12,595 nt of DNA, from contig JAFYQC010000057.1 in the NCBI GenBank assembly GCA_017547265.1, positions 1 to 12,595 on the forward strand, written 5' to 3'. Position numbers and translations under genes: made by a program. The notes beneath the pieces are model-generated. The model was not told where the DNA came from and ran no database searches. It worked only from the letters and a program-made list of their open reading frames with translations. This document shows positions 700 to 11,531 of the stretch, one piece after another (within the stretch, counting starts at the first letter, position 1; the number at the start of each line of letters is the position of its first letter). The stretch comes from Kiritimatiellia bacterium. Its GTDB lineage: Bacteria > Verrucomicrobiota > Kiritimatiellia > RFP12 > UBA1067.

Positions 700-1473
700 T
701 CAGTTAGGAAACGCCCCGTCCGCGACTTCCTTGACGTACGCGGCAAATGCGCCGCGCACGACCGGTGCGAGGTCGGCGTACTTCTTGACGAACGACGGCA
801 CCTTTTCGTTGAGCCCGAGGAGGTCGTGCATGACGAGCCATTGCGCGTCGCAGACTGGCCCCGCTCCAATGCCGATCGTGACGATCTTGAGCGCGGCAGT
901 TATCTCGGCTGCGAGGTCGGACGGAATGCACTCGAGAGTGACTGCGAACGCACCCGCCTCCTCGACGGCCTTTGCGTCTGCGAGCACCTTCTCGGCGGCC
1001 TCGCGCGTCTTGCCCTGCTTCTTAAAGCCGCCGTATTCGTTGACGCTCTGGGGCGTCATGCCGACATGCGCAAGGACCGGTATCCCAGCCGTCGTGAGGC
1101 GGCGAATGAGCGAGCACACCGACGCCCCGCCCTCGAGCTTCACCGCTTCTGCGCCCGCCTTGATGATCGCTACGGCGTTCTTCACCGCCTCGTCGTCACC
1201 GCACTGGTACGAGCCGAAAGGCATGTCACCTACGACAAGCGCGTCCTTTGTGCCGCGAGCGACAGCGGCCACTGCAGCGACCGTATCGGACATGTTGACG
1301 GGGAGAGTCGTCTCGTAGCCGAGGCAGTTCATGCCCTGAGAGTCGCCGACGAGGATGATCGGAGCGCCCGCTTCGTCGGCCAGGCGCGCGAAGCACGCAT
1401 CGTATGCGGTTACGCAGCCGAGCTTCGTCTTTCCCTTCGCGGCCCTTATGGCCGCAACGTTCCACTTCTTCAT
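700..1473 (-). CDS. panB: 3-methyl-2-oxobutanoate hydroxymethyltransferase
   Basis: First committed step of pantothenate (hence coenzyme A) synthesis. It transfers a hydroxymethyl group from 5,10-methylene-tetrahydrofolate to alpha-ketoisovalerate, giving ketopantoate, in the cytoplasm. The 257-residue product matches the usual family length (about 260-280). Metal ligands are visible at D44 (LVGDSQGM), D83 (VGDMPFGSYQ) and E114 (VKLEGG). The catalytic glutamate is E181 (TLECIPSDLA), and the conserved IGIGAGP motif is at 200-206. The start codon overlaps the stop of the upstream pseudoprotease gene as ATGA (1470-1473), and a strong GGAGAAGGGG Shine-Dalgarno lies just ahead, so it is translated as the last gene of the obg operon. 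No panC or panD is in view. No strong hairpin terminator was found after its stop. Confidence 0.97.
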   Translation of the reverse strand: MKKWNVAAIRAAKGKTKLGCVTAYDACFARLADEAGAPIILVGDSQGMNCLGYETTLPVNMSDTVAAVAAVARGTKDALVVGDMPFGSYQCGDDEAVKNAVAIIKAGAEAVKLEGGASVCSLIRRLTTAGIPVLAHVGMTPQSVNEYGGFKKQGKTREAAEKVLADAKAVEEAGAFAVTLECIPSDLAAEITAALKIVTIGIGAGPVCDAQWLVMHDLLGLNEKVPSFVKKYADLAPVVRGAFAAYVKEVADGAFPN

Positions 1474-3530
1474 TTCCCCTTCTCCTTGTCCTTGTCCGCA
1501 TCGGCATCCGGCTCGACGTGTATCTTGACCATGCGCGTCTGCGCGAGATGGCGCACCGCGAACACGAGATCCTTCTTGCCCTTGACCTTCGCGGCAAAGT
1601 CCTTCGCGCTAGTCACCTTCTCGCCGTTCACCTCGGTGACAAGCTCATGCTCGTCGAGCCCTGCGACATCGGCGGGAGAACCCGGCTTCACCTTGGCGAT
1701 CACGATGCCAGGCGCCTTCTCGTCGAACTTGAAGAAGCTGCGCACCTCGAACGTCATGTCGCGGACCGAGAGGCCAAGCGTGCGGTTGCGGGCCTTAGGC
1801 GCGTTCTTGTAGTGGACGGGCGCGGGCTCGAGAACTACCGGGGTCTCGCAGCGCTTGCCATCGCGCGCATACACGATCGTCACCTTCGCGCCGGCGCCGA
1901 ACTCCGTCATGAGCGTGTTGAGGGAGTTCTCCACTTCCGGCCACGGAGCGGACGACGAATACGAATAGTCGTAGTCCGCCTCGAGCGAACGCTCGCGTTC
2001 GCTTCCGCGCCTGACAGCGAGCAGTATGTCGCCGACCTGGAGCCCCGCCTTCGCCGCTGGCGAATCGGGATAAACTTCCGTCACGTAGGGGGGCCTCGAA
2101 TACTCCTTTATGAAACTCTGCGCCTTCTTCTCGCGCGCGAGGGCGTCAGTGAGGCGCACCGCCTCAGTGCCGAGCCAGACGAAGCGGTTGCGCTCCTCTT
2201 CCTTGCGCGGCATGAACTCCGGATTGAAACATTCGCCAGCGATGAAGCGCGAGAGATCAGCCATCGTCACCGGCTCCGTGTCGTGCCTCGACCAGCGGCT
2301 TGAAGAGAACCTGCGACAAAGGGATAACACGGCGACATTCCCGTCGTCGTCGAGGACAAACGCCTTGAAGCTGCCAGTCGGCATGTCGTCGTCATCGTCG
2401 TCGTCGCCGCGCATGCCCGAGCGCCATTCCCCGATGAAGGGAACGAAGCCAGCGCCACGCACGAACTTGACGCCCGAAAAGCGACGGCGCGTCGCGGTCG
2501 TGACGACATGCCCGTTTTCGTTCTCGGCGACCATCACCCAGGCAACGCGGTTGTCGAAGTCATCGGGCGCGCCCTTCGCCACCGTGAGGGGAGTGGCCTT
2601 GTCCTTGAAGCCCTCTGGTATGTCGAACACAATCGCGTTCCACTCTGCAATCGCACCGGCAAATACGAGATTCGTCTTAGAGCCGTCGGGGAACGTCGCC
2701 TCTACCTTGCCGAGACGGGATATCTTCTCGCCGTTGAGATCGGACGGAACGAGTACGCGCCCCTCGATAGCGAAGCCAAGCGCGTCAATCTCGTTGTTGC
2801 CGCCGTCATCGTCGTAGCGAGAATAGCGGCGCGAGGCATTCTCCTTGTCTATGGGATTGAGGTGGATCACGATGCCGAGCGTCGCCGCCGCGAGGCGGTC
2901 TTCCATGCGCTTCGCCGACTTTTCGTATTCGTCTGCGGGGAGCCGAGTCCACTCCGCCGGCGGAACATAGTCGAACTTGCCGTCCTGCATCTCGAAGCGC
3001 GAGCCGAAGTCGAGCCACACGGGATTGCGGTCCTTGTCGACATAGAGGGCGTTCGCGACGCCCTTCCTGAACACGCGACCGGTCGACGCCACCACGATTA
3101 CGGAGTCGTTCGTACCGACGCCAGCGGACGAAACGGTAAGCGTGTCGCCGTTCCACTTCCAGACGAGCTTCTCGACGGGATCGCCCTTCTGGAACGCGAG
3201 CGGTGTGACGCCCTTGACTGGACGTTCAGCCTTGAGCAGCACCGCGTCGGGATTCACGAAGCGCCCGATTTCCTTGGCGGGAACCTTGTCACCCCCGAAG
3301 CACACCTCGATGCGGTCGAGGTGCTTTTCGCGGACGAGGGGATCCGCAACGATGAACTCGTCCTCGGAAATTGCAAACGCCGGGAAGCGCTTCGGCTTCG
3401 CAAGTTCGGATATCTCGTCGCCCCTCCCGCGCTCGTCCTTCTTGTACCAATAGGCGGCGAGAGCGACGGAGGAAAGCTTGTCAGACGGAACTGCTGCGGC
3501 GAGCAGCGACGCGGCCAATACGGAAAGCAT
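1470..3530 (-). CDS. Secreted protein with two inactive HtrA-like protease domains and two PDZ domains
   Basis: 686 residues with a short N-terminal signal sequence (about 1-14), so probably exported. It starts 3 bases after the stop of the active protease gene, behind a GAGGAGGA ribosome site. By my alignment to that neighbour, residues about 48-180 are a trypsin-like fold whose catalytic His, Asp and Ser positions read P64, D95 and A159 (GVANALYVD in place of GNSGGPLVD). Residues about 250-410 look like a second copy, with D264, N298 and F388 at the triad positions. Two PDZ domains follow: about 450-570 (VYPDSPAAKAGLQVGD) and 584-673 (VKPGSPADVAGLDE). A run of seven aspartates (376-382, DNA 2385-2405) and an Asp/Lys-rich tail are low-complexity. 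The likely role is non-catalytic: substrate binding, or modulation of the neighbouring protease. Gene boundaries and PDZ domains are secure; the duplicated dead-protease reading is inferred from hand alignment. Confidence 0.85.
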   Translation of the reverse strand: MLSVLAASLLAAAVPSDKLSSVALAAYWYKKDERGRGDEISELAKPKRFPAFAISEDEFIVADPLVREKHLDRIEVCFGGDKVPAKEIGRFVNPDAVLLKAERPVKGVTPLAFQKGDPVEKLVWKWNGDTLTVSSAGVGTNDSVIVVASTGRVFRKGVANALYVDKDRNPVWLDFGSRFEMQDGKFDYVPPAEWTRLPADEYEKSAKRMEDRLAAATLGIVIHLNPIDKENASRRYSRYDDDGGNNEIDALGFAIEGRVLVPSDLNGEKISRLGKVEATFPDGSKTNLVFAGAIAEWNAIVFDIPEGFKDKATPLTVAKGAPDDFDNRVAWVMVAENENGHVVTTATRRRFSGVKFVRGAGFVPFIGEWRSGMRGDDDDDDDMPTGSFKAFVLDDDGNVAVLSLCRRFSSSRWSRHDTEPVTMADLSRFIAGECFNPEFMPRKEEERNRFVWLGTEAVRLTDALAREKKAQSFIKEYSRPPYVTEVYPDSPAAKAGLQVGDILLAVRRGSERERSLEADYDYSYSSSAPWPEVENSLNTLMTEFGAGAKVTIVYARDGKRCETPVVLEPAPVHYKNAPKARNRTLGLSVRDMTFEVRSFFKFDEKAPGIVIAKVKPGSPADVAGLDEHELVTEVNGEKVTSAKDFAAKVKGKKDLVFAVRHLAQTRMVKIHVEPDADADKDKEKGK

Positions 3531-3533
3531 GTC

Positions 3534-4877
3534 TCAGTCCTCCTCTTCTGTATCTTCTGTGTAGTCGAGGACGAGCGTCGTGCGCCGACCTCTCCTCATG
3601 ACGACGAACGGCAGTCGCGTCTTCTCCTCGAGCTTCGCGATGGAATCCTCGTAGACGGCCTTTACCTCCGCGACGGTCTTGACCGGCTTCCCGCCGATCG
3701 AGACGATTATGTCGCTCTCACGGAAGCCGCAGGAATCGGCGTTGCCGTCCCACGCAAGTCCAGAGACATAGACGCCGCCTTCGGGCGCGAAGAAGATGAG
3801 GTCGGGGTTGTAGAAGCGGTTGATCTCCTTCGCGGTGAGGCCCCAGCGCTCGCACGCGAACTCCTCGCCCTCGACGCGACCCTTCTCCGTCGGCGCGACG
3901 GCAATCTCGACATCCTTCCCGTCGCGGACGACCTTGAATTTGCAGGGCTTCTCGAACTCCCTACGTCCAAGATGGCGCTCGATTGCGGGAATGTCCTCCC
4001 AGAACCGCGCCGTCGTCTTCTCGCCGTCGACAGAGAGCAGCAGGTCGTTCGACTTAAGACCCGCCTTCTCCGCGGGCGAACCCGGCTCCACGTCGGCGAC
4101 AAGAGCGCCTTCCTTCGCATCGAAACGTATGTTGCGCTTGAAGTCCTCGAGCGGCTGGAGCTTGAACCCGAACCACGCCCAGTGCGCCTCGCCGTACTTC
4201 CTGAGGTCGGGCAGTATCTCTAGAATCGTCTCGGAAGGAATCGTGAACGCCTGGTCTCCAAAAAGATTGCCGCGCGCATTGAGCCCAACGACGTGACCGT
4301 CTGTGTCGACGAGAGGTCCGCCCGAGTTGCCGGGCGAGATCGCTGCGTCTGTCTGGTACCAAAGCGTGTAGTCTCCGCAGTCCTCGAGGAAGCGGTCGTT
4401 GCACGAGACGATGCCCATCGAAACCGAACGCGCGAGACCCCACGGCGCGCCCATGGCGAGCACGACTTCACCGACCTCAAGTCGGCGCGGCGAAAGCGCC
4501 GCGACGGGAACGTCCGTTCCCTCGGGAATATCGAGCTTCAGGAGCGCGATGTCGAGGTCCTTGTCCTTGCCGAGCACCTTGGCAGTGAACGAACGTCCGT
4601 CTGCGAGCTGGCAGCGTATCTCGCTCGTCTTGTCGACGACATGGTGGTTGGTCAGCACCTCGCCGTCCTTCGAGACTACTACGCCCGATCCCGACGCAAC
4701 ACCCTTGCGGTTGCGGCCTGACTCGGTGTCGTTGTAGATTACGCGAATGAAGACTACCGCAGGCGCGACTGCGGCCTTTGCCTCGGATACGACTTGCCTA
4801 AAGTCTGGCGTCGACGAGATGCAACCCGCCGCGCACAGCAGAAGAGCCGCCGATACGGCCCTCGCGATTTGATTCAT
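3534..4877 (-). CDS. HtrA/DegP-like serine protease with two PDZ regions, probable lipoprotein
   Basis: Envelope protease of the HtrA (S1C) family, expected to degrade or refold misfolded proteins outside the cytoplasm. The 447 residues begin with a signal peptide ending in a lipobox-like AAGC (C19), so it is probably lipid-anchored. The full triad is present: H79 in TNHHVV, D109 in DLDIALLK and S185 in SPGNSGGPLVD. A PDZ domain follows (about 235-330, VEPGSPAEKAGL), then a second PDZ-like region (about 340-437, with GFRESDIIVSIGGKPV). The frame stays open upstream to 4961. I chose the ATG at 4877 because it gives a proper signal peptide, has GAAAGGA about 9 bases ahead, and does not overlap obg. 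It lies 16 bases after obg and 3 bases before the pseudoprotease gene, so the three are probably co-transcribed. It is about as long as DegP/DegQ-type proteins but differs in its C-terminal half. Confidence 0.93.
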   Translation of the reverse strand: MNQIARAVSAALLLCAAGCISSTPDFRQVVSEAKAAVAPAVVFIRVIYNDTESGRNRKGVASGSGVVVSKDGEVLTNHHVVDKTSEIRCQLADGRSFTAKVLGKDKDLDIALLKLDIPEGTDVPVAALSPRRLEVGEVVLAMGAPWGLARSVSMGIVSCNDRFLEDCGDYTLWYQTDAAISPGNSGGPLVDTDGHVVGLNARGNLFGDQAFTIPSETILEILPDLRKYGEAHWAWFGFKLQPLEDFKRNIRFDAKEGALVADVEPGSPAEKAGLKSNDLLLSVDGEKTTARFWEDIPAIERHLGRREFEKPCKFKVVRDGKDVEIAVAPTEKGRVEGEEFACERWGLTAKEINRFYNPDLIFFAPEGGVYVSGLAWDGNADSCGFRESDIIVSIGGKPVKTVAEVKAVYEDSIAKLEEKTRLPFVVMRRGRRTTLVLDYTEDTEEED

Positions 4878-4893
4878 TTTCCGTTGTCCTTTC

Positions 4894-6051
4894 TCAATGG
4901 ATGTTTCCCCTCGACGGATGGCTCTTCGCCTTCGGGTCCTCAAACTTGAGGAATGTCGCAAACTTCAAGGCCTCGGCTGGAATTTCGTCGCCAGTCGTGT
5001 CTGGCATATCCTTTATGTCAGGCGCGACTTCGTGGGTGTGGTGGAACTTCACGACGGGATTCACGATGCGCCGAAGTTCTTCCTTGAGGGCGTCGAGCCC
5101 ATCGCGAGTCTCGCACGATACGCAGATTGGACTTACGCCGGTCTCCTTTACGAAGCGCTCGAGATTCTCCTTTGCACCCTCGAGGTCGAGCTTGTTGGCG
5201 ACGACGACGGCAGGCCGCTCCGCAAGCTCGACGGAATACTCGTCGATCTCGCTGCGCAGCACCTCGTAGTCGCGCCACGGCTCACGCCCGTCGACGCCAG
5301 CCATGTCGATCACGTAGACTAGGACGCGCGAACGCTCGAGGTGCTTTAGGAACGCAAGCCCGAGCCCAACGCCCTTCGCCGCGCCCTCGATTATACCGGG
5401 CACGTCCGCGATGCGAATCTTCGCGTAGTCGTGGTATACGACCGTGCCGACTATCGGGTTCAGGGTCGTGAAAGGATAGCTCGCGATCTTCGGGGTCGCA
5501 GCAGAAAGCGACGAGAGGAGCGACGACTTGCCGGCATTGGGGAAACCGAGAAGCCCGACATCCGCTATCGTCTTGAGCTCAAGCCGGAGACGACGCTCCT
5601 CTGCGGCGCCGCCAGGAGTGTGCTCGGTTGGCGCCTGGTTCACCGACGACTTGAAATGGACATTGCCAAACCCACCGGCGCCGCCCTTTGCAACGATCGC
5701 GGTCTGGCCAGGTTCCGTTATGTCAGCGACAAGAAGCCCAGAGTCGACATCGTACACTTCGGTACCGAGCGGAACAGGCACGATAAGGTCCTTGCCACGC
5801 TTTCCGTACATCTTCTGCCCCTGCCCGGCACCGCCGTCCTGCGCGAAGCACTTGGGATCGTAGAAGAGGGAGAGGAGTGAATTCACGTGGTCGGACGCCT
5901 TGAACACGACGTCGCCGCCACGACCGCCGTCGCCGCCGTCTGGCCCGCCAAACTCAACAAGGGCCTCGCGCCGGAACGACATCGCGCCATCGCCGCCCTT
6001 GCCCGACCTGACAAGAACCTCGACTTGGTCTATGAATGTCTTCGCCTTCAT
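4894..6051 (-). CDS. obg: Ribosome-associated GTPase Obg
   Basis: Essential GTPase that binds the 50S ribosomal subunit and acts in ribosome assembly and growth control. The 385-residue product has the glycine-rich Obg domain at 1-160 (RSGKGGDGAMSFRRE, FGGPDGGDGGRGGDVVF). The G domain carries G1 GFPNAGKS at 169-176, G2 TT at 195-196, G3 DVPG at 216-219, G4 NKLD at 286-289 and a G5-like VSCETRDG at 311-318. The roughly 55 residues after the G domain show no recognisable OCT domain; this tail varies widely in the family. The usual upstream partners rplU and rpmA are not adjacent. Instead obg leads an operon with two envelope proteins and panB. No Shine-Dalgarno lies before the ATG, but an extended -10 element ends 7 bases upstream, which predicts a leaderless message. 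Confidence 0.97.
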   Translation of the reverse strand: MKAKTFIDQVEVLVRSGKGGDGAMSFRREALVEFGGPDGGDGGRGGDVVFKASDHVNSLLSLFYDPKCFAQDGGAGQGQKMYGKRGKDLIVPVPLGTEVYDVDSGLLVADITEPGQTAIVAKGGAGGFGNVHFKSSVNQAPTEHTPGGAAEERRLRLELKTIADVGLLGFPNAGKSSLLSSLSAATPKIASYPFTTLNPIVGTVVYHDYAKIRIADVPGIIEGAAKGVGLGLAFLKHLERSRVLVYVIDMAGVDGREPWRDYEVLRSEIDEYSVELAERPAVVVANKLDLEGAKENLERFVKETGVSPICVSCETRDGLDALKEELRRIVNPVVKFHHTHEVAPDIKDMPDTTGDEIPAEALKFATFLKFEDPKAKSHPSRGNIH

Positions 6052-6105: not shown

Positions 6106-7974
6106 CTACTTGAGGCCAAGAATGCGCGAAATCGCGCTCGTGACCTTGAACATCGCATTCTCGAAATCATCCTTCTTCGCCGGAACAGTCTCGCTCTCGA
6201 CGACAGTTTCGCCTTGTTTCAGCGAAACCTCGACTTCGTTCCCCGTGCGGCGGACCGATATCTCGAACTCGACGACCTCCTCCTGCTCCTCGGGCGTCTC
6301 TTCGGGCTGCTGTTCCTCGGGCGGCGGTTCCTCGGGCTTTTCCTCGTTCTCCGGCTTCGGCTCGTTCATCTCCTCGAGGATCGTCCTTGCGAGAAGCTCG
6401 ATCTTGCGCCTTACGCTCGGGAAAAGCGCCTTGTGCTGTTCGGCGGCGTTCGCAGGGCGCTTCGCCTCGTCGGGCCAGAGCGTGTTGAGACGAGACGCCT
6501 CCCACGACTCCTCAGTCGCCTGGGTAAGAAGGCCGACGATGGTCTTCAAATCGGGCGTACGCGTCCAAAGCGAATCCTTGCGCTTCTTCGCCTCGGCAAG
6601 AACCTGCGCATGGCTTCCATCGACGATGGCGTTCTGCGCGGCGATCGCGCTGCGAGCAATGTCAAACGCCGCGGCCACCTCGGAATCGGCGCGGCTGTCG
6701 GCTTCTTCCATCAGCGGCCTGCCCTTCGGCGCGTCCGCGAGAGACTTGAGCGCTCCAAGCGAACGCCACTCCTTGACCGACTTCGCGTAGTCGCTTCTCG
6801 CCGTCACGTCGTCCGCGAGATCAGCGGGCGGGAACCATGTTCCGTCCGCAAGCGTGGGCCATGTGTCGTCTGCCTGGCGCTTCGCCGCAGTCGCGCGCGC
6901 CTCGCGCCACTTTGGAAGGACCTCTTTCTTCACCTTCGCCTCGGCGGCCTTCTGGATCCGCTCGCCACCAAGACGCGAGGCAAGGTATTCCCTCAGTTCG
7001 TCGCGCTCCGACTGCGGCGCGTCGTTGCAAGCACCGTCGAGAGCCCGAGCGAGAAGCGCCGTGGAATAGCGGGTCGCAAAGATTTTTTCGCTCTCCGCTT
7101 GCTTCACATGCTTCTGCGGCGCCTCGACGATCTCCTTGAGTATCGAATCGACATCGACTTCGACATTCGTTGCTTCCATCTTCTTCTCGAGACGGTCAAG
7201 TGTGCGGCGCTCGACTGCTGGCCCGACTGACTTCTCGAATGTTCCGGCAAACACGCCCCACGCCTTCGACGGATCGTCCGCCTTTTCGCGGCGTTCCTTC
7301 ACATTCTCCTCGAGACGCGCCTTCAGGTCTGCAGCAAGCTTCGATGGCGCGGCGGTGTCGCACCGCGCGCGCATCAGGTACTCGGCCTGGCGCTTCTGCT
7401 CGTGGCGAGCGTCCTTTATGACTGGCTCAACCATGCGCTCGCTGATGAACTGGCGGTTCTCGGAGAAGACGACCGTCTTCTGCTCGTCAAGGATGCGCTT
7501 TTGCATCTGCTCGCGAAGTTCCCAGTCCTCCTTCTCGTCGAATTCCGCTTCCGTCGGGCGAGTGGCGGCAACAATCGTCTTCGCCTGCGCCTCGACTGCG
7601 GCCTTACGCTCTGCGGCAAACGCGGAGGCAAAATGCTTGTTTGCGATTTCGTCGGCCTTGCCTGCGTCCAACTCCACCTTGTCCGACTCTAGGCCAAGCC
7701 GTTCGGCGATGGCGCGCGCCTTCGCGGCGAACTGCGCGCGCAGTTCGTCGGCAAAGACTCCACGGCAAAGCGCCTCGGCCTCGGCCGGCTTCTCGAACTT
7801 CTTTGGATCGGCGAGCATCGCCTTTTCAAGCGCCCCCGGCGCTGGACCCTTCTCGCGCAACTCCTCACGGGCGCGTGAAAGCGAGATGTCGCGCGCGCCG
7901 TCACGCGCCGTCGAGTCGAACTCTGCGTTCCCGGCCGAGAGCGTCGCGGCCAAAATCAATGCAATCATGTTCAC
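6106..7974 (-). CDS. Secreted, mostly helical protein of unknown function, partner of the ExbB/ExbD-like pair
   Basis: I do not recognise the family. The 622 residues (from the GTG) begin with a signal-peptide-like segment (MIALILAATLSAGNAEF), so the protein is probably exported. Residues about 30-535 are charged and Ala/Glu/Lys-rich with helical character and no enzyme motif I can see. A Glu/Pro-rich linker (about 537-568) leads to a small C-terminal module, about 569-622, with beta-like alternation (EFEISVRRTGNEVEVSL) and then a helix. The start is chosen as GTG at 7974: its GTGA overlaps the stop of the preceding gene, and GGAGG lies 7 bases ahead. The ATG two codons later would sit 13 bases from that site. 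As the last gene of the operon, it could be the envelope effector or load-bearing partner of the two membrane proteins. That is inference from position and export signal only. Confidence 0.82.
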   Translation of the reverse strand: MNMIALILAATLSAGNAEFDSTARDGARDISLSRAREELREKGPAPGALEKAMLADPKKFEKPAEAEALCRGVFADELRAQFAAKARAIAERLGLESDKVELDAGKADEIANKHFASAFAAERKAAVEAQAKTIVAATRPTEAEFDEKEDWELREQMQKRILDEQKTVVFSENRQFISERMVEPVIKDARHEQKRQAEYLMRARCDTAAPSKLAADLKARLEENVKERREKADDPSKAWGVFAGTFEKSVGPAVERRTLDRLEKKMEATNVEVDVDSILKEIVEAPQKHVKQAESEKIFATRYSTALLARALDGACNDAPQSERDELREYLASRLGGERIQKAAEAKVKKEVLPKWREARATAAKRQADDTWPTLADGTWFPPADLADDVTARSDYAKSVKEWRSLGALKSLADAPKGRPLMEEADSRADSEVAAAFDIARSAIAAQNAIVDGSHAQVLAEAKKRKDSLWTRTPDLKTIVGLLTQATEESWEASRLNTLWPDEAKRPANAAEQHKALFPSVRRKIELLARTILEEMNEPKPENEEKPEEPPPEEQQPEETPEEQEEVVEFEISVRRTGNEVEVSLKQGETVVESETVPAKKDDFENAMFKVTSAISRILGLK

Positions 7975-8669
7975 GGCAGAACCTCCGCGCCAGTCGCCTC
8001 GGCGACAAGCTTAAGCGACCTTGCCTTTAGTGCGTCCGCCAGCGCGCTTGGGTCGGCTATGTCGCCGAGCGCAGACGGGTTTTCGATCCACTGGCGCTGC
8101 AGACGCGCGGCAAGAGCGCGCTGAACGCCACGGGCGTCAAGGCGAACATCCTCGACGGAACGCGCAATCTCGTCGTCGAGCCATGTCTTTTCATCATCGG
8201 TAAGCGCGGCTTCCTCAAGTTTCGCCTCATTGAGGACGGCAGACTTCCATGCAACGGCGAGCGCGGCCGAATCGCGGTAATCGGCGCATGCAGCAGCCGA
8301 ACCAGACGCAAACGCGGCTTTCGCCGCAGGCGCGAGCTCGATGCGCCCGCCCTTCACGTGCTCGTCGGCGTCGAAAGAGCGGCGGCCGTCTGTTCCCTGG
8401 GTCATTAGAGCGTTAAGCCCGTATTTAACGCGATGGTCCTCGGCGACCTTCTCGAGCGCAAGAACGAGCTTCTGCCTGTTCACTTCAAGGATTTCCTCGG
8501 CGCGTTCCTTGCGCGACATCTCAACGAAGATGAAGTAGGCGATCATGAAGACCATAAGTAGCGCGAACACGACCTGGAGAAGAAGCCCCTGCAAGTCGTC
8601 GGTCGTCGCCCGACGAGAGGCATCTCCCCCAAGGAGCCGTTTCAACGCAGCGCGGTCAGATTCCGTCAT
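7971..8669 (-). CDS. Single-span membrane protein, ExbD/TolR/MotB-like
   Basis: 232 residues: a short charged cytoplasmic N-terminus, one strong membrane helix (about 28-49) and a largely helical C-terminal part likely outside the inner membrane. This is the layout of ExbD, TolR and MotB. The helix LQVVFALLMVFMIA lines up with the ExbD membrane helix, but the proton-carrying Asp position reads Gln (Q32). The nearest acidic residues are D24/D25 before the helix and E50 after it. No OmpA-type peptidoglycan-binding motif is visible in the C-terminal part. It follows the ExbB-like gene by 9 bases, with AAGGA (8676-8680) overlapping that gene's TAA, and overlaps the next gene as GTGA, so coupled translation is likely. 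Assignment rests on topology and neighbour; sequence similarity alone is weak. Confidence 0.8.
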   Translation of the reverse strand: MTESDRAALKRLLGGDASRRATTDDLQGLLLQVVFALLMVFMIAYFIFVEMSRKERAEEILEVNRQKLVLALEKVAEDHRVKYGLNALMTQGTDGRRSFDADEHVKGGRIELAPAAKAAFASGSAAACADYRDSAALAVAWKSAVLNEAKLEEAALTDDEKTWLDDEIARSVEDVRLDARGVQRALAARLQRQWIENPSALGDIADPSALADALKARSLKLVAEATGAEVLP

Positions 8670-8678
8670 GGCGCGTCC

Positions 8679-9581
8679 TTATCCCCTGAGCGCCGCGGCA
8701 ACCCGCGCAAGGCGCGCTTCCGTCTCTACGCGGGCTTCGTCCGCGGCCTTTGCACGGCGTTCGAGCGCTTCGAGTTCTCGCTTGAAGAACTCGACGTATT
8801 CCTTCTGGCGCGTTTCGAAAGACTGCTCGTAGTCGGAAAGACGCTTCTCGAAATGCGCGGCATATTCGCCGCGCCGCTTCTCGAATTCCGCAGCGTCGGC
8901 TGCGGCCCTTCGCGAAGCTTCCGCCGCGTAGTCGTCGAGGCGCTTGCGAAACTCCGCCTCGAACTCCTGCTGGCGCTTTTCGAACGCATCCGACGCCGCG
9001 CCGAGACGCACGACGAGCCGGTCCACTGCCGCCGCAAGATCGCCGTCGTCCGTCTCCGCGAGCCCCGTCTCTTCGAGGAGCCGCGTGAAATACGGCCTTA
9101 CGAGCGGACGGTCGATGAGAAACACCCAGACGACTGCGGCCAAGGTCGAGAAGAGCGCCGTATGAAGGCACTGCATGAGGTCTGCCATAGTCACCGTGTC
9201 GAGCTTGAAGTAGCCGATCACTATGATTCCCCAGAGCGTGCCGAGAAGCCCGAGCGCAACATTCAACTGGTCGGACCCGCGGAAGAACGGGAAGTCGCCA
9301 GCGCGAGCACGACGGCGGGCAAGCATCCGCGACAACGAAAGCGTCATGCAGAGGAAGCCGAGCAACGGAATGAACGTCGTCACCGCCGAATAGTCGACGA
9401 CCGTCCAGTCGAGCCAGGGGAGGAATCCCGACGCCTTTGCCGCGAACGCCGACGAATCACCGCCGGCGGCGATAAACGACGACCACCAGTTGAATATGGC
9501 GACAACATTGTTCACGAAGGCAAGCGCACAGAAGACTGTCGCGCAGATGCACGCGAAAAGAAGGACAATGACTTTTTTCAT
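8679..9581 (-). CDS. TolQ/ExbB/MotA-like inner-membrane channel subunit with a hendecad coiled-coil tail
   Basis: 300 residues. Membrane segments are at about 3-31, 63-87, 105-124 and 134-156. The last two (LNVALGLLGTLWGIIVIGYF, then LMQCLHTALFSTLAAVVWVFLI) have the pattern of the conserved TM pair of the MotA/TolQ/ExbB proton-channel family. There a five-subunit ring surrounds a two-chain ExbD/MotB-type partner, which the next gene could supply. Unlike ExbB and TolQ, this protein carries a long C-terminal helix (about 180-296) that includes seven successive 11-residue repeats. The start ATG overlaps the nadE stop as ATGA (9578-9581), so expression is probably coupled to nadE. Zorya ZorA also pairs a MotA-like core with a helical tail, but no other Zorya gene is present. 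Family membership is inferred from topology and motif pattern. Confidence 0.82.
   Translation of the reverse strand: MKKVIVLLFACICATVFCALAFVNNVVAIFNWWSSFIAAGGDSSAFAAKASGFLPWLDWTVVDYSAVTTFIPLLGFLCMTLSLSRMLARRRARAGDFPFFRGSDQLNVALGLLGTLWGIIVIGYFKLDTVTMADLMQCLHTALFSTLAAVVWVFLIDRPLVRPYFTRLLEETGLAETDDGDLAAAVDRLVVRLGAASDAFEKRQQEFEAEFRKRLDDYAAEASRRAAADAAEFEKRRGEYAAHFEKRLSDYEQSFETRQKEYVEFFKRELEALERRAKAADEARVETEARLARVAAALRG
8757..8987 (-). repeat. Seven tandem 11-residue repeats in the ExbB-like tail
   Basis: Residues 199-275 of the ExbB-like protein divide exactly into seven 11-residue units without gaps. Examples are AFEKRQQEFEA, EFEKRRGEYAA, HFEKRLSDYEQ and SFETRQKEYVE, with consensus xFEKRxxEYxA. 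The third unit (EASRRAAADAA) and the seventh are the most diverged. An 11-residue period is the hendecad pattern of nearly straight or slightly right-handed coiled coils. Confidence 0.85.
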
Positions 9582-10600
9582 AGTATCCCCGTTGGCATGT
9601 CGGACGGTATCGACCAGCTCTCCTTGGAGAAGTCGAACGAGAAAATCCTTATTCCGTCAGGCGCGCAGTTGCGCTTGAACGCCTGCGAGACAAGACGGTA
9701 GAGGAACGTGTCGAGCGTGCGTCCGATGAGATCAAGCCCGAAAGTCTTCCCATAGCGCTTCGCCGCGGCGTCGTAGAGCGCCTTGCGGCCAAGGCCGTTC
9801 TTGCAGAAATTCCAGATGAAGAAGTCGTGTAGCTCGTAGGGACCGATCTTGTCCTCTGTAACCTGACCCTTCACGAGTTCGGGGCTCACGGGCGTAGCGA
9901 CGATATCCATGAGCGCCTTCGCCGCCTTCGCCGTTCCCCGTTCCCCATTCCCCGTTCCCCTCTTCTCCGCCCACCACGTGCAGACCTTGCGAACGATTGT
10001 CTTCGGAACGCCGGAGTTGACGCCGAACATCGACATGTGGTCGCCGTTGTAGGTGCACCAGCCGAGCGCGATCTCCGACATGTCGCCCGTGCCAAGGACT
10101 ATTCCGCCGACCATGTTTGCCTTGTCCATCAATATCAACGTACGCATCCTCGCCTGCGAATTCTCGTAGGCGGCGTCGGGCGTCTTTCCGTCGTGCCCGA
10201 TGTCCTTGAGGTGCTGCCTCACAGACTTCGCGATTGAGATCGTCTCCATCTTCACCCCGAGCCCTTCGCAGAGAAGGTCGGCGTTCGTCTTCGTGCGCTT
10301 CGAGGTGCCGAAGCCGGGCATCGTGTAGGCGTGGATGCCGGAGAGAGGAAGCGAAAGCTTCTTAAAAGCGCCGACGGCGACAAGAAGCACGAGCGCGGAG
10401 TCAAGGCCTCCCGATACGCCGATAACGACGTCCTTTACGCCGATGCGCTTGAGCCGGAGCGCGAGTCCGTCGACCTGTTTCGCGTAGACTTTCGCGGGAT
10501 CGCAGGGGAACGGGGCGGACGCCGCGCGCCCCTTCGGAAGCTTCGCGAGACTGCCGAGAGTCCCGCCGCTCTTGATGTATTCCTTAAGACGCTTGTCCAT
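9578..10600 (-). CDS. nadE: NAD synthetase, synthetase domain only (glutamine-dependent type without glutaminase domain)
   Basis: Makes NAD from deamido-NAD with ATP and ammonia; cytoplasmic. The 340 residues carry the pyrophosphatase loop SGGLDS at 63-68, TMPGFGTSKRTK at 93-104, YENSQARMR at 145-153 and GTGDMSEIALGWCTYNGDH at 170-188. The C-terminus has GPYELHDFF (253-261), QAFKRN and a PSDM end. These motifs match the synthetase half of the roughly 650-residue glutamine-dependent enzymes, yet the N-terminal nitrilase-like glutaminase domain is missing and cannot lie upstream. Residues about 214-223 (RGTGNGERGT) come from a 7-bp tandem repeat and look like an insertion. I chose the ATG at 10600 over an in-frame GTG at 10636, because the promoter -10 lies between them. 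It overlaps the next gene as ATGA. Ammonia is either used directly or supplied by a separate glutaminase. Confidence 0.93.
   Translation of the reverse strand: MDKRLKEYIKSGGTLGSLAKLPKGRAASAPFPCDPAKVYAKQVDGLALRLKRIGVKDVVIGVSGGLDSALVLLVAVGAFKKLSLPLSGIHAYTMPGFGTSKRTKTNADLLCEGLGVKMETISIAKSVRQHLKDIGHDGKTPDAAYENSQARMRTLILMDKANMVGGIVLGTGDMSEIALGWCTYNGDHMSMFGVNSGVPKTIVRKVCTWWAEKRGTGNGERGTAKAAKALMDIVATPVSPELVKGQVTEDKIGPYELHDFFIWNFCKNGLGRKALYDAAAKRYGKTFGLDLIGRTLDTFLYRLVSQAFKRNCAPDGIRIFSFDFSKESWSIPSDMPTGIL
9933..9960. repeat. Heptamer tandem repeat inside nadE
   Basis: Four contiguous 7-bp units on the plus strand: GTTCCCC, GTTCCCC, ATTCCCC, GTTCCCC. On the coding strand this is a GGGGAAC/GGGGAAT run encoding part of RGTGNGERGT. 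Since 7 is not a multiple of 3, gain or loss of one unit would shift the nadE reading frame. Confidence 0.9.
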
Positions 10601-10607
10601 GTAGGAA

Positions 10608-10616
10608 ATTATACCA
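10608..10616 (-). promoter_or_regulatory. Extended -10 promoter of nadE operon, predicts a leaderless mRNA
   Basis: The minus strand reads TGGTATAAT, ending 7 bases before the nadE ATG at 10600. No Shine-Dalgarno is present between them (TTTCCTAC) and no -35 hexamer is recognisable. The expected transcription start falls on or next to the ATG. The first T of the element is also the last T of the T-run of the preceding terminator-like hairpin. Confidence 0.65.
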
Positions 10617-10663
10617 AAAAGCGGCCTCGCGCGCACACTGATGGGCCCGCCGAATTAGCCGCT
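10616..10663 (-). terminator. Possible hairpin terminator after the prenyl synthase gene
   Basis: On the minus strand, AGCGGC (10658-10663) and GCCGCT (10620-10625) can pair as a 6-bp stem over a 32-base loop. The T-run TTTTT (10616-10620) begins with the last base of the stem. The large loop weakens the case, but it lies about 17 bases after the prenyl synthase stop and directly before the nadE promoter, where a terminator would be expected. Confidence 0.42.
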
Positions 10664-10679: not shown

Positions 10680-11531
10680 TCAGACTGAGCGCCCGACGAG
10701 CTTCTCGGCAAGCGCCTTCAGGAACGACGTATCGCCAGGGAGCTCTGCAAGCGCGGCGATTGACGCGGCGGTAGTCTCGCGGACGAGCGCCTCGGTCTTC
10801 TCGCGCGAATACGGCGAATCGCCGTCGAGAAGATCGTCTTCGTACTGGAACGCGAGCCCGAGATTTAGCGCAAACGTGCGAAGCTTCTCGACGCTCGCCG
10901 CATCGCCGCCACCAGCATAGCCGCCCATCGCCGCCGCCGCGACAAAGAGATCGGCGGTTTTGTGGGTGTAGACAAAGTCTACCAACTCCATGGGCAAGGG
11001 TGCGGGGCTGCCAGAAGCCCCGTCCGTTCCATTCACCCTTCCCAAGGGTGCGGGACCGCCCGCAGTCCCGTCCGTTCCACTCTCCCGCTTCAAATCTTCT
11101 ACCTGTCCCTGCACAACGCCGACACCAGCAGCGCCAAGCGCCGCAACGATTTCGGCGACGTTACGCGGCGCATTTGCCGCGGCCTCGAAGGCAAGCGCCT
11201 GCAAAGCGTCGCCGACGAGAATTGCGTTCGCCTCGCCAAACTTAGTCCAGACCGTCGGCTTGCCGCGGCGCTCCGTGTCGTTGTCCATCGCGGGAAGATC
11301 GTCGTGGACAAGCGTGTAGTTGTGAAGTAGTTCTATTGCCGCAGCGGGATAGCGCGCGTCTTCCGCGCTCCCGCCGACCGCGACTGCGCTCGCAAGGCAG
11401 ATGAGCGGACGGATCCTCTTCCCGCCCGTGCCGACGGCATAGCGCATCGCCTCGCTCAACTCCGCAGGGCGCTCCCACGGCTTCGGCAAGACCTCGTCAA
11501 GGGTCCGCTCGACTATCTCAAGATACTCCAT
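10680..11531 (-). CDS. ispA: Polyprenyl (probably farnesyl) diphosphate synthase
   Basis: Condenses isopentenyl diphosphate with allylic diphosphates to build C15 or longer prenyl chains for quinones and wall-lipid carriers. The 283 residues include GGKRIRP (36-42), the first Asp-rich motif DDLPAMD (77-83), RRGKPT (88-93), KT (191-192) and the second Asp-rich motif DDLLD (232-236). The context HNYTLVHDDLPAMD resembles the bacterial IspA type, so farnesyl product is likely, though chain length is not proven. The frame is open to a GTG at 11552, but the ATG at 11531 has AAAGGA 5 bases ahead and is preferred. Residues 149-180, between GQVEDLK and the KT helix, are an in-frame insertion encoded by two 48-bp repeats. 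The gene follows the oxidoreductase by 29 bases. Confidence 0.92.
   Translation of the reverse strand: MEYLEIVERTLDEVLPKPWERPAELSEAMRYAVGTGGKRIRPLICLASAVAVGGSAEDARYPAAAIELLHNYTLVHDDLPAMDNDTERRGKPTVWTKFGEANAILVGDALQALAFEAAANAPRNVAEIVAALGAAGVGVVQGQVEDLKRESGTDGTAGGPAPLGRVNGTDGASGSPAPLPMELVDFVYTHKTADLFVAAAAMGGYAGGGDAASVEKLRTFALNLGLAFQYEDDLLDGDSPYSREKTEALVRETTAASIAALAELPGDTSFLKALAEKLVGRSV
10995..11090. repeat. Two tandem 48-bp hairpin-forming repeats inside the prenyl synthase gene
   Basis: Copy A is 10995-11042 and copy B is 11043-11090. They differ at 7 of the first 44 positions. Each holds an inner hairpin: GGGGCT with AGCCCC in copy A, and GGGAC with GTCCC in copy B. Two of the differences (repeat positions 13 and 24) compensate, a G-C pair becoming A-T. 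Copy A also has an outer inverted repeat, AAGGGTG (10996-11002) with CACCCTT (11034-11040). On the coding strand each copy adds 16 residues, RESGTDGTAGGPAPLG and RVNGTDGASGSPAPLP. Confidence 0.9.

Follow-up and report, generated by a model that had tools for sequence, protein, structure and literature searches.

Machines of the 5:2 type, as in ExbBD, TolQR, MotAB and ZorAB, consist of five ring subunits round two axle helices, and in ExbD, TolR, MotB and ZorB protons are carried by an Asp of the membrane helix. To our knowledge, few kinds of 5:2 machine have been characterised. As described in the consulted parts of the respective papers, ZorAB is a 5:2 complex in which the ZorA tails bundle into a rod required for function (PMC11890865), GldL-GldM of type IX secretion bears its working acid on the ring subunit (GldL E49; PMC8986121), vWA force transducers encoded beside tolQ-like genes mark new TolQ-type systems in Verrucomicrobia, including Tichowtungia (PMC12204202), and generic ion transporters (GIT) have ring proteins carrying extra parts at the N and the C terminus, with B subunits that show no homology to OmpA (PMC12505986). 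Here we analyse a DNA stretch of 12,595 nucleotides from a Kiritimatiellia bacterium (contig JAFYQC010000057.1 of assembly GCA_017547265.1, referred to as the window), in which three packed genes on the minus strand, designated o1, o2 and o3, form a trio that recurs in related genomes. We consider it rather probable that their products are subunits of one 5:2-type envelope machine that combines a rod in the cytoplasm with a new subunit in the periplasm.

Conservation and gene order of the trio

All three open reading frames (ORFs) lie where the original prediction had placed them. Based on the ORF list, Pfam and hydropathy, o1 (8679..9581, read as 9581-8679 on the minus strand) encodes a four-span subunit of the MotA/TolQ/ExbB type with 300 residues. 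Separated from it by 9 bases, o2 (7971..8669, minus) encodes a single-span subunit of 232 residues with a helical periplasmic part in the AlphaFold2 model, and o3 (6106..7974, minus) encodes a helical protein of 622 residues without any full-length span, for which export was judged by eye. The stop of o2 and the GTG start of o3 overlap by 4 bases (7971..7974, minus), an arrangement present in identical form in 29 of 33 trio loci (starts called by script), which suggests that the two genes may be coupled in expression.

A scan of species genomes revealed 36 loci with relatives of o1, and the order o1-o2-o3 is complete in 33 of them; the remaining three lie at a contig edge (L036), are cut in o2 (L015) or carry another gene after o1 (L007). 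Four of the 33 trios are incomplete: in L013 and L017 the contig stops within o3, in L020 o2 contains an inner stop, and in L010 there is a frame change in o3. In nine genomes outside the class (L097-L105), o1 adjoins o2 in all nine loci and the order extends to o3 in eight, L101 having no o3 match. The neighbourhood of the three genes in relatives, which had been set beforehand as a test, was thus found in both sets of loci.

Co-occurrence across genomes gave a similar picture. Among 345 genomes of the class, o1 was detected in 56, o3 in 56 and both in 51, with five genomes containing o1 without o3 and five containing o3 without o1; o3 is present in 48 of the 49 genomes that have o1 at E below 1e-50. 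A profile of o2 matched 19 of the 387 phylum genomes sampled, nine of which are outside the 345 class genomes. A more distant group (L067-L072) has an o1-like gene in all six loci, a clustered o2-like gene in five and an o3-like gene in four, and the o3 of this distant clade is homologous to o3 (hhalign probability 98.9, E 2.8e-17, 548 columns). Searched with the o3 profile, the distant clade gave weak matches in G022, G026 and G082 (E 1.5e-9 to 9.9e-8) and no match in G318 and G322.

Pairwise divergences of o1, o2 and o3 are correlated (mirror-tree, r 0.91-0.93, Mantel P 0.0005) across the 27 rows retained after leaving out L007, L010, L013, L015, L017, L020, L036 and near-identical rows. When the proteins of 38 sources (the window and 37 loci) were clustered, the trio genes recurred in 38, 33 and 32 of them, and no other listed cluster exceeded five apart from ORFs overlapping the trio. 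We consider it very improbable that the trio consists of three unrelated membrane or exported proteins merely sharing an operon: that o3 resembles nothing known would fit such an explanation, but order, co-occurrence and correlated divergence are kept across diverged genomes while the other neighbours change. The association of the three genes is therefore beyond chance, because conserved proteins stand in the same order elsewhere and have diverged in a correlated manner. Furthermore, clear separate ExbB genes were identified in 11 of 11 trio genomes and clear ExbD genes in nine of nine, and the trio is thus an additional system in genomes that already hold both.

Carriers of the trio are Verrucomicrobiota, with many of gut or rumen origin. 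The organism names of protein matches comprise Kiritimatiellae, Victivallaceae and unplaced bacteria, and one match from Victivallaceae was already labelled MotA/TolQ/ExbB by its source database. A plasmid search with o2 matched nothing.

The ring-family subunit o1 and its tail

Assignment of o1 to the MotA/TolQ/ExbB superfamily, as proposed originally, agrees with matches to PF01618 at E up to 1 in all 27 scanned o1 proteins, including that of the window (best E 1.6e-4), and the o1 of a distant relative (L098) passes the Pfam cut-off of 22.9 bits with 27.1 bits in one scan and 30.1 in another. In a second, more distant set of o1 proteins, six of 12 matched PF01618 at E up to 0.01. The membrane core (residues 1-161; 9099..9581, minus) was aligned over 53 rows, in all of which residues including Asn25, Asp63, Thr69, Gly111, Gly114, Thr115, Gly118, Thr141, Ala142 and Ser145 are invariant. 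The ring motif GxGTxxG, Thr141 and Ser145 are without exception in the 53 rows, and in 41 rows of ExbB type taken from relatives the conserved columns are likewise GxGTxxG and the threonine-bearing inner helices. For Asp63, a position at the outer edge of span two is expected. On sequence grounds we class o1 as a divergent member of the MotA/TolQ/ExbB proteins.

The tail of o1 (residues 180-300; 8682..9044, minus), placed on the cytoplasmic side by topology, is a coiled coil of variable length built of 11-residue repeats. Its self-identity is 0.267 at a lag of 11 and 0.225 at a lag of 22, as compared with 0.06-0.13 at other lags up to 30, and its hydrophobic period peaks at 3.64. In a tail pool of 371 sequences (120 of them of the o2 type), 147 proteins had both of two fixed anchors, and the anchor-to-anchor length is 7 modulo 11 in 143 of these and 3 in the remaining four. 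A second count found both anchors in 146 of 235 o1-type proteins, 89 being unmeasurable, and in the 25 left after removal of near copies the lengths are 7 and 3 modulo 11 in 21 and four proteins, respectively. The length of the o1 tail, where measurable, thus appears to change almost only by whole 11-residue repeats, although such whole-repeat steps could alternatively come from repeat slippage. Tails of 26 further, more distant proteins mostly peak near 3.5, and identity at lag 11 exceeds 0.2 only in L083 and L085; the 11-residue repeat is therefore a feature of the wider clade of the window.

A ring protein with a long tail is also what ZorA offers, and the trio might accordingly be read as a phage-defence machine of the Zorya kind, whose rod would signal to cytoplasmic effectors. 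Weak matches to ZorA profiles were obtained, the best of window o1 (6.1e-4) lying on the tail and those of L068 o1 reaching 3.3e-8 and 0.0029 in two scans, but the NCBIfam model of ZorA gave only 10.9 bits against a cut-off of 700. No ZorB, ZorC, ZorD or ZorE match was found by PADLOC among nine trio proteins, a scan that left neighbour genes outside, and no helicase or nuclease is present among ten window proteins, the neighbours at other loci being outside the defence-gene scan. In the Pfam scan of ten window proteins (the partial ORF 3-602 was outside it), partners of the TonB, Tol-Pal, flagellar or Zorya kind were likewise not found, in agreement with the lack of such partners originally reported. 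Correlated divergence and a steady exported third gene are also unlike a defence island, and we regard a Zorya-kind role as very improbable.

The partner genes o2 and o3 and their surroundings

The single membrane helix of o2 (residues 24-53 from alignment and hydropathy; 8511..8600, minus) starts with the acidic Asp24 and Asp25 and contains an invariant Gln32. AlphaFold2 predicts one long helix (residues 23-82) followed by a mainly helical head, with a mean predicted local distance difference test score (pLDDT) of 82.7. The original description of o2 as ExbD/MotB-like holds for the single-span layout and fails for the Pfam families: among 25 o2 members, none matched PF02472 (ExbD/TolR) at E up to 1, and MotB PF13677 and the OmpA-domain models gave no match either. 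A MotB-like model, NF006543, gave a weak match in 15 of the 25 members (E up to 0.1); the window copy scored 20.4 bits against a cut-off of 305, over profile positions 22-175 of 350 and from o2 residue 24 on. The same model was found in 211 of 288 genomes of the phylum, mostly at profile positions beyond 190 among the rows listed, which is uninformative for o2.

As originally proposed, o3 looks exported and matched none of the families searched. Its start (residues 1-17; 7924..7974, minus) is short and signal-peptide-like by eye, and more classical signal-like starts can be seen by eye in relatives such as L032, L097, L100 and L103. The AlphaFold2 model (mean pLDDT 88.1) comprises a long helical body, a linker rich in proline and glutamate (residues 541-566; 6277..6354, minus; pLDDT under 50) and a small C-terminal domain of three strands and a helix (residues 570-619; 6118..6267, minus). 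Searches that included Pfam gave no family match for o3, and no Pfam match to a TonB/TolA-type C-terminal domain was found in window o3 or in 19 C-terminal pieces of relatives. Taken together, o3 is a helical protein, exported as judged by eye, for which no known family could be assigned. An internal duplication (hhalign E 0.0013, probability 18.5) is suggestive only. By eye, the pattern of the o3 C-terminus in distant relatives resembles an ExbD-like fold, but this reading was set aside, as nothing usable came from Pfam, PDB sequences or hhalign (P 0.017, probability 2.7).

The coupling of the trio to nadE that was originally proposed does not hold among relatives. The end of the nadE gene (9578-10636) coincides with the o1 start in the window, as it does in three of the 36 loci (L001, L003 and L008), and a nadE match was detected in only seven of the 36; the other 29 have no nadE match in the stretch examined, several being short upstream. 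Coupling to Obg was rejected as well, as the neighbours change and o3 is followed immediately by Obg in just two loci, L003 and L028, the remaining Obg match (L018) being elsewhere. Of the 677 positions of the NAD synthase model NF002730, the nadE product matches only 340-661, the C-terminal half, and the protein therefore probably lacks the glutaminase half. At 1470-4961 of the window, Pfam identified a trypsin-like protease with two PDZ stretches, followed by a protein of 686 residues that likewise has two PDZ stretches but matches no protease. Tandem repeats were noted within nadE (9927-9960; 7 base pairs, 4.9 copies), in the polyprenyl synthase gene (10995-11086; 48 base pairs, 1.9 copies) and in o3 of L001 (L001:11934-12058; 21 base pairs, 6 copies); these short repeats may be in-frame insertions typical of the clade.

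A candidate envelope machine and its described counterparts

In the 5:2-type machine that we favour, five o1 proteins would form a ring and their tails would bundle into a cytoplasmic rod, while two o2 helices would pass through the ring and bear the helical periplasmic head. Once exported, o3 would dock on this head and may reach the peptidoglycan or the outer membrane via its proline-rich linker and small C-terminal domain. That o3 takes over from TonB, Pal or a peptidoglycan anchor, as originally suggested, is hypothetical. Ions might flow past the ring threonines Thr115 and Thr141, with the carboxylate provided by o2 (Asp24/Asp25) or o1 (Asp63), and this flow would turn or tilt parts of the complex so that force passes between the rod and o3.

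Several observations count against such a machine. The o1 of the window reaches only 18.1 bits with PF01618, below the Pfam cut-off of 22.9; the family matches of o2 are weak throughout, and the o2 of the most distant clade shows only weak likeness to o2 (hhalign probability 9.4, E 0.0034). A fold search with o3 returned nothing significant, PorM appearing at chance level only (E 5.7). In genome G011 (L007, L197), o1 is on one contig and o2 and o3 are together on another, which reflects either a rearrangement or an assembly error. Finally, when the o2 helix was scored against ExbD in different registers, the best one placed Gln32 on the pore Asp (9.65-10.06, as compared with 6.69-7.15 for the next; column-shuffle P 0.02-0.04), and the pairing of o2 Asp25 with the ExbD Asp scored near zero.

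This last result bears on a serious rival explanation, which we nevertheless hold to be unlikely, namely an unpowered scaffold in which ring and axle were kept, the ion drive was lost and the complex would be a fixed strut between the rod and o3, with a role in cell shape or in positioning. No variation at Gln32 was found in 51 aligned o2 rows, hhalign gave the same pairing of Gln32 with Asp over 17 helix columns, although at low significance (probability 5.3, P 0.0073), and the pore Asp is kept in 42 of 44 ExbD segments from the genomes of relatives. An acid is, however, present seven residues before Gln32 in 46 of the 51 rows and four before it in the other five, on the same helix face, and the NF006543 match, which begins at residue 24 in the window copy, would be compatible with this acid as the homologous residue. 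Scoring against MotB, moreover, ranked residue 37 first and Gln32 second, and in a control with ExbD against MotB the best register was off by five and the true one second (P 0.175), which indicates that the register test is blunt. In view of this MotB preference and the misplaced control, a reading in which Gln32 marks definite loss of the Asp was dropped. The two remaining ExbD segments (within L107-L166) have Thr at the pore-Asp column. In L203 and L212, two of four loci read, helices with an Asp were seen in a by-eye comparison.

Beyond the 5:2-type machine preferred here, we tentatively raise a more specific possibility, to which we give little credence: the trio might represent a separate 5:2 branch with an invariant glutamine in place of the proton-carrying pore residue, driven by a displaced acid (o2 Asp24/25, o1 Asp63) or by no ions at all, and passing force between a rod, its length set in steps of 11 residues, and a soluble subunit in the periplasm that belongs to a new family. 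A further 5:2 machine, whose periplasmic partner is new and whose pore helix bears a polar residue that does not vary, would offer a natural way of testing which residues the drive truly requires. The stepwise tail of o1 makes it possible to ask whether the phase from membrane to tail end has an influence in a cytoplasmic rod, and the trio directs attention to a function that may be sought in gut bacteria so far little studied.

Compared with described systems, the trio shares with ExbB-ExbD-TonB and TolQ-TolR-TolA the common PF01618 core motifs and the logic of a ring, a single-span protein and a periplasmic partner. Different from ExbB and TolQ, o1 combines four spans and a long tail with a cytoplasmic loop that is very short, and o2 has no ExbD match; different from TonB and TolA, the start of o3 by eye resembles a signal peptide rather than a membrane anchor of their type. 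As far as the consulted text on ZorAB describes it (PMC11890865), the likeness lies in a single-span partner beside a ring protein whose long coiled-coil tail is cytoplasmic, whereas o2 has no detected OmpA-type peptidoglycan domain and the trio shows no ZorC, ZorD or ZorE and has an exported third gene and 11-residue tail repeats. GldL, compared by its partial description only (PMC8986121), is a precedent for a ring-borne acid and has two membrane helices as compared with four in o1.

Among the titles and abstract openings listed by a literature search of open papers, most subscription papers being outside its reach, none describes the o1-o2-o3 trio. The vWA transducers are defined, in the consulted portion of their report (PMC12204202), by a vWA domain together with a TPR gene or a pore-helix Asp, and window o3 has no Pfam vWA match. 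For GIT, the accessible text (PMC12505986) describes no trio with an exported third gene and contains neither Kiritimatiell- nor Lentisphaer-. As far as these texts go, what has been published closest to the trio are the vWA transducers (PMC12204202) and the diverse GIT (PMC12505986).

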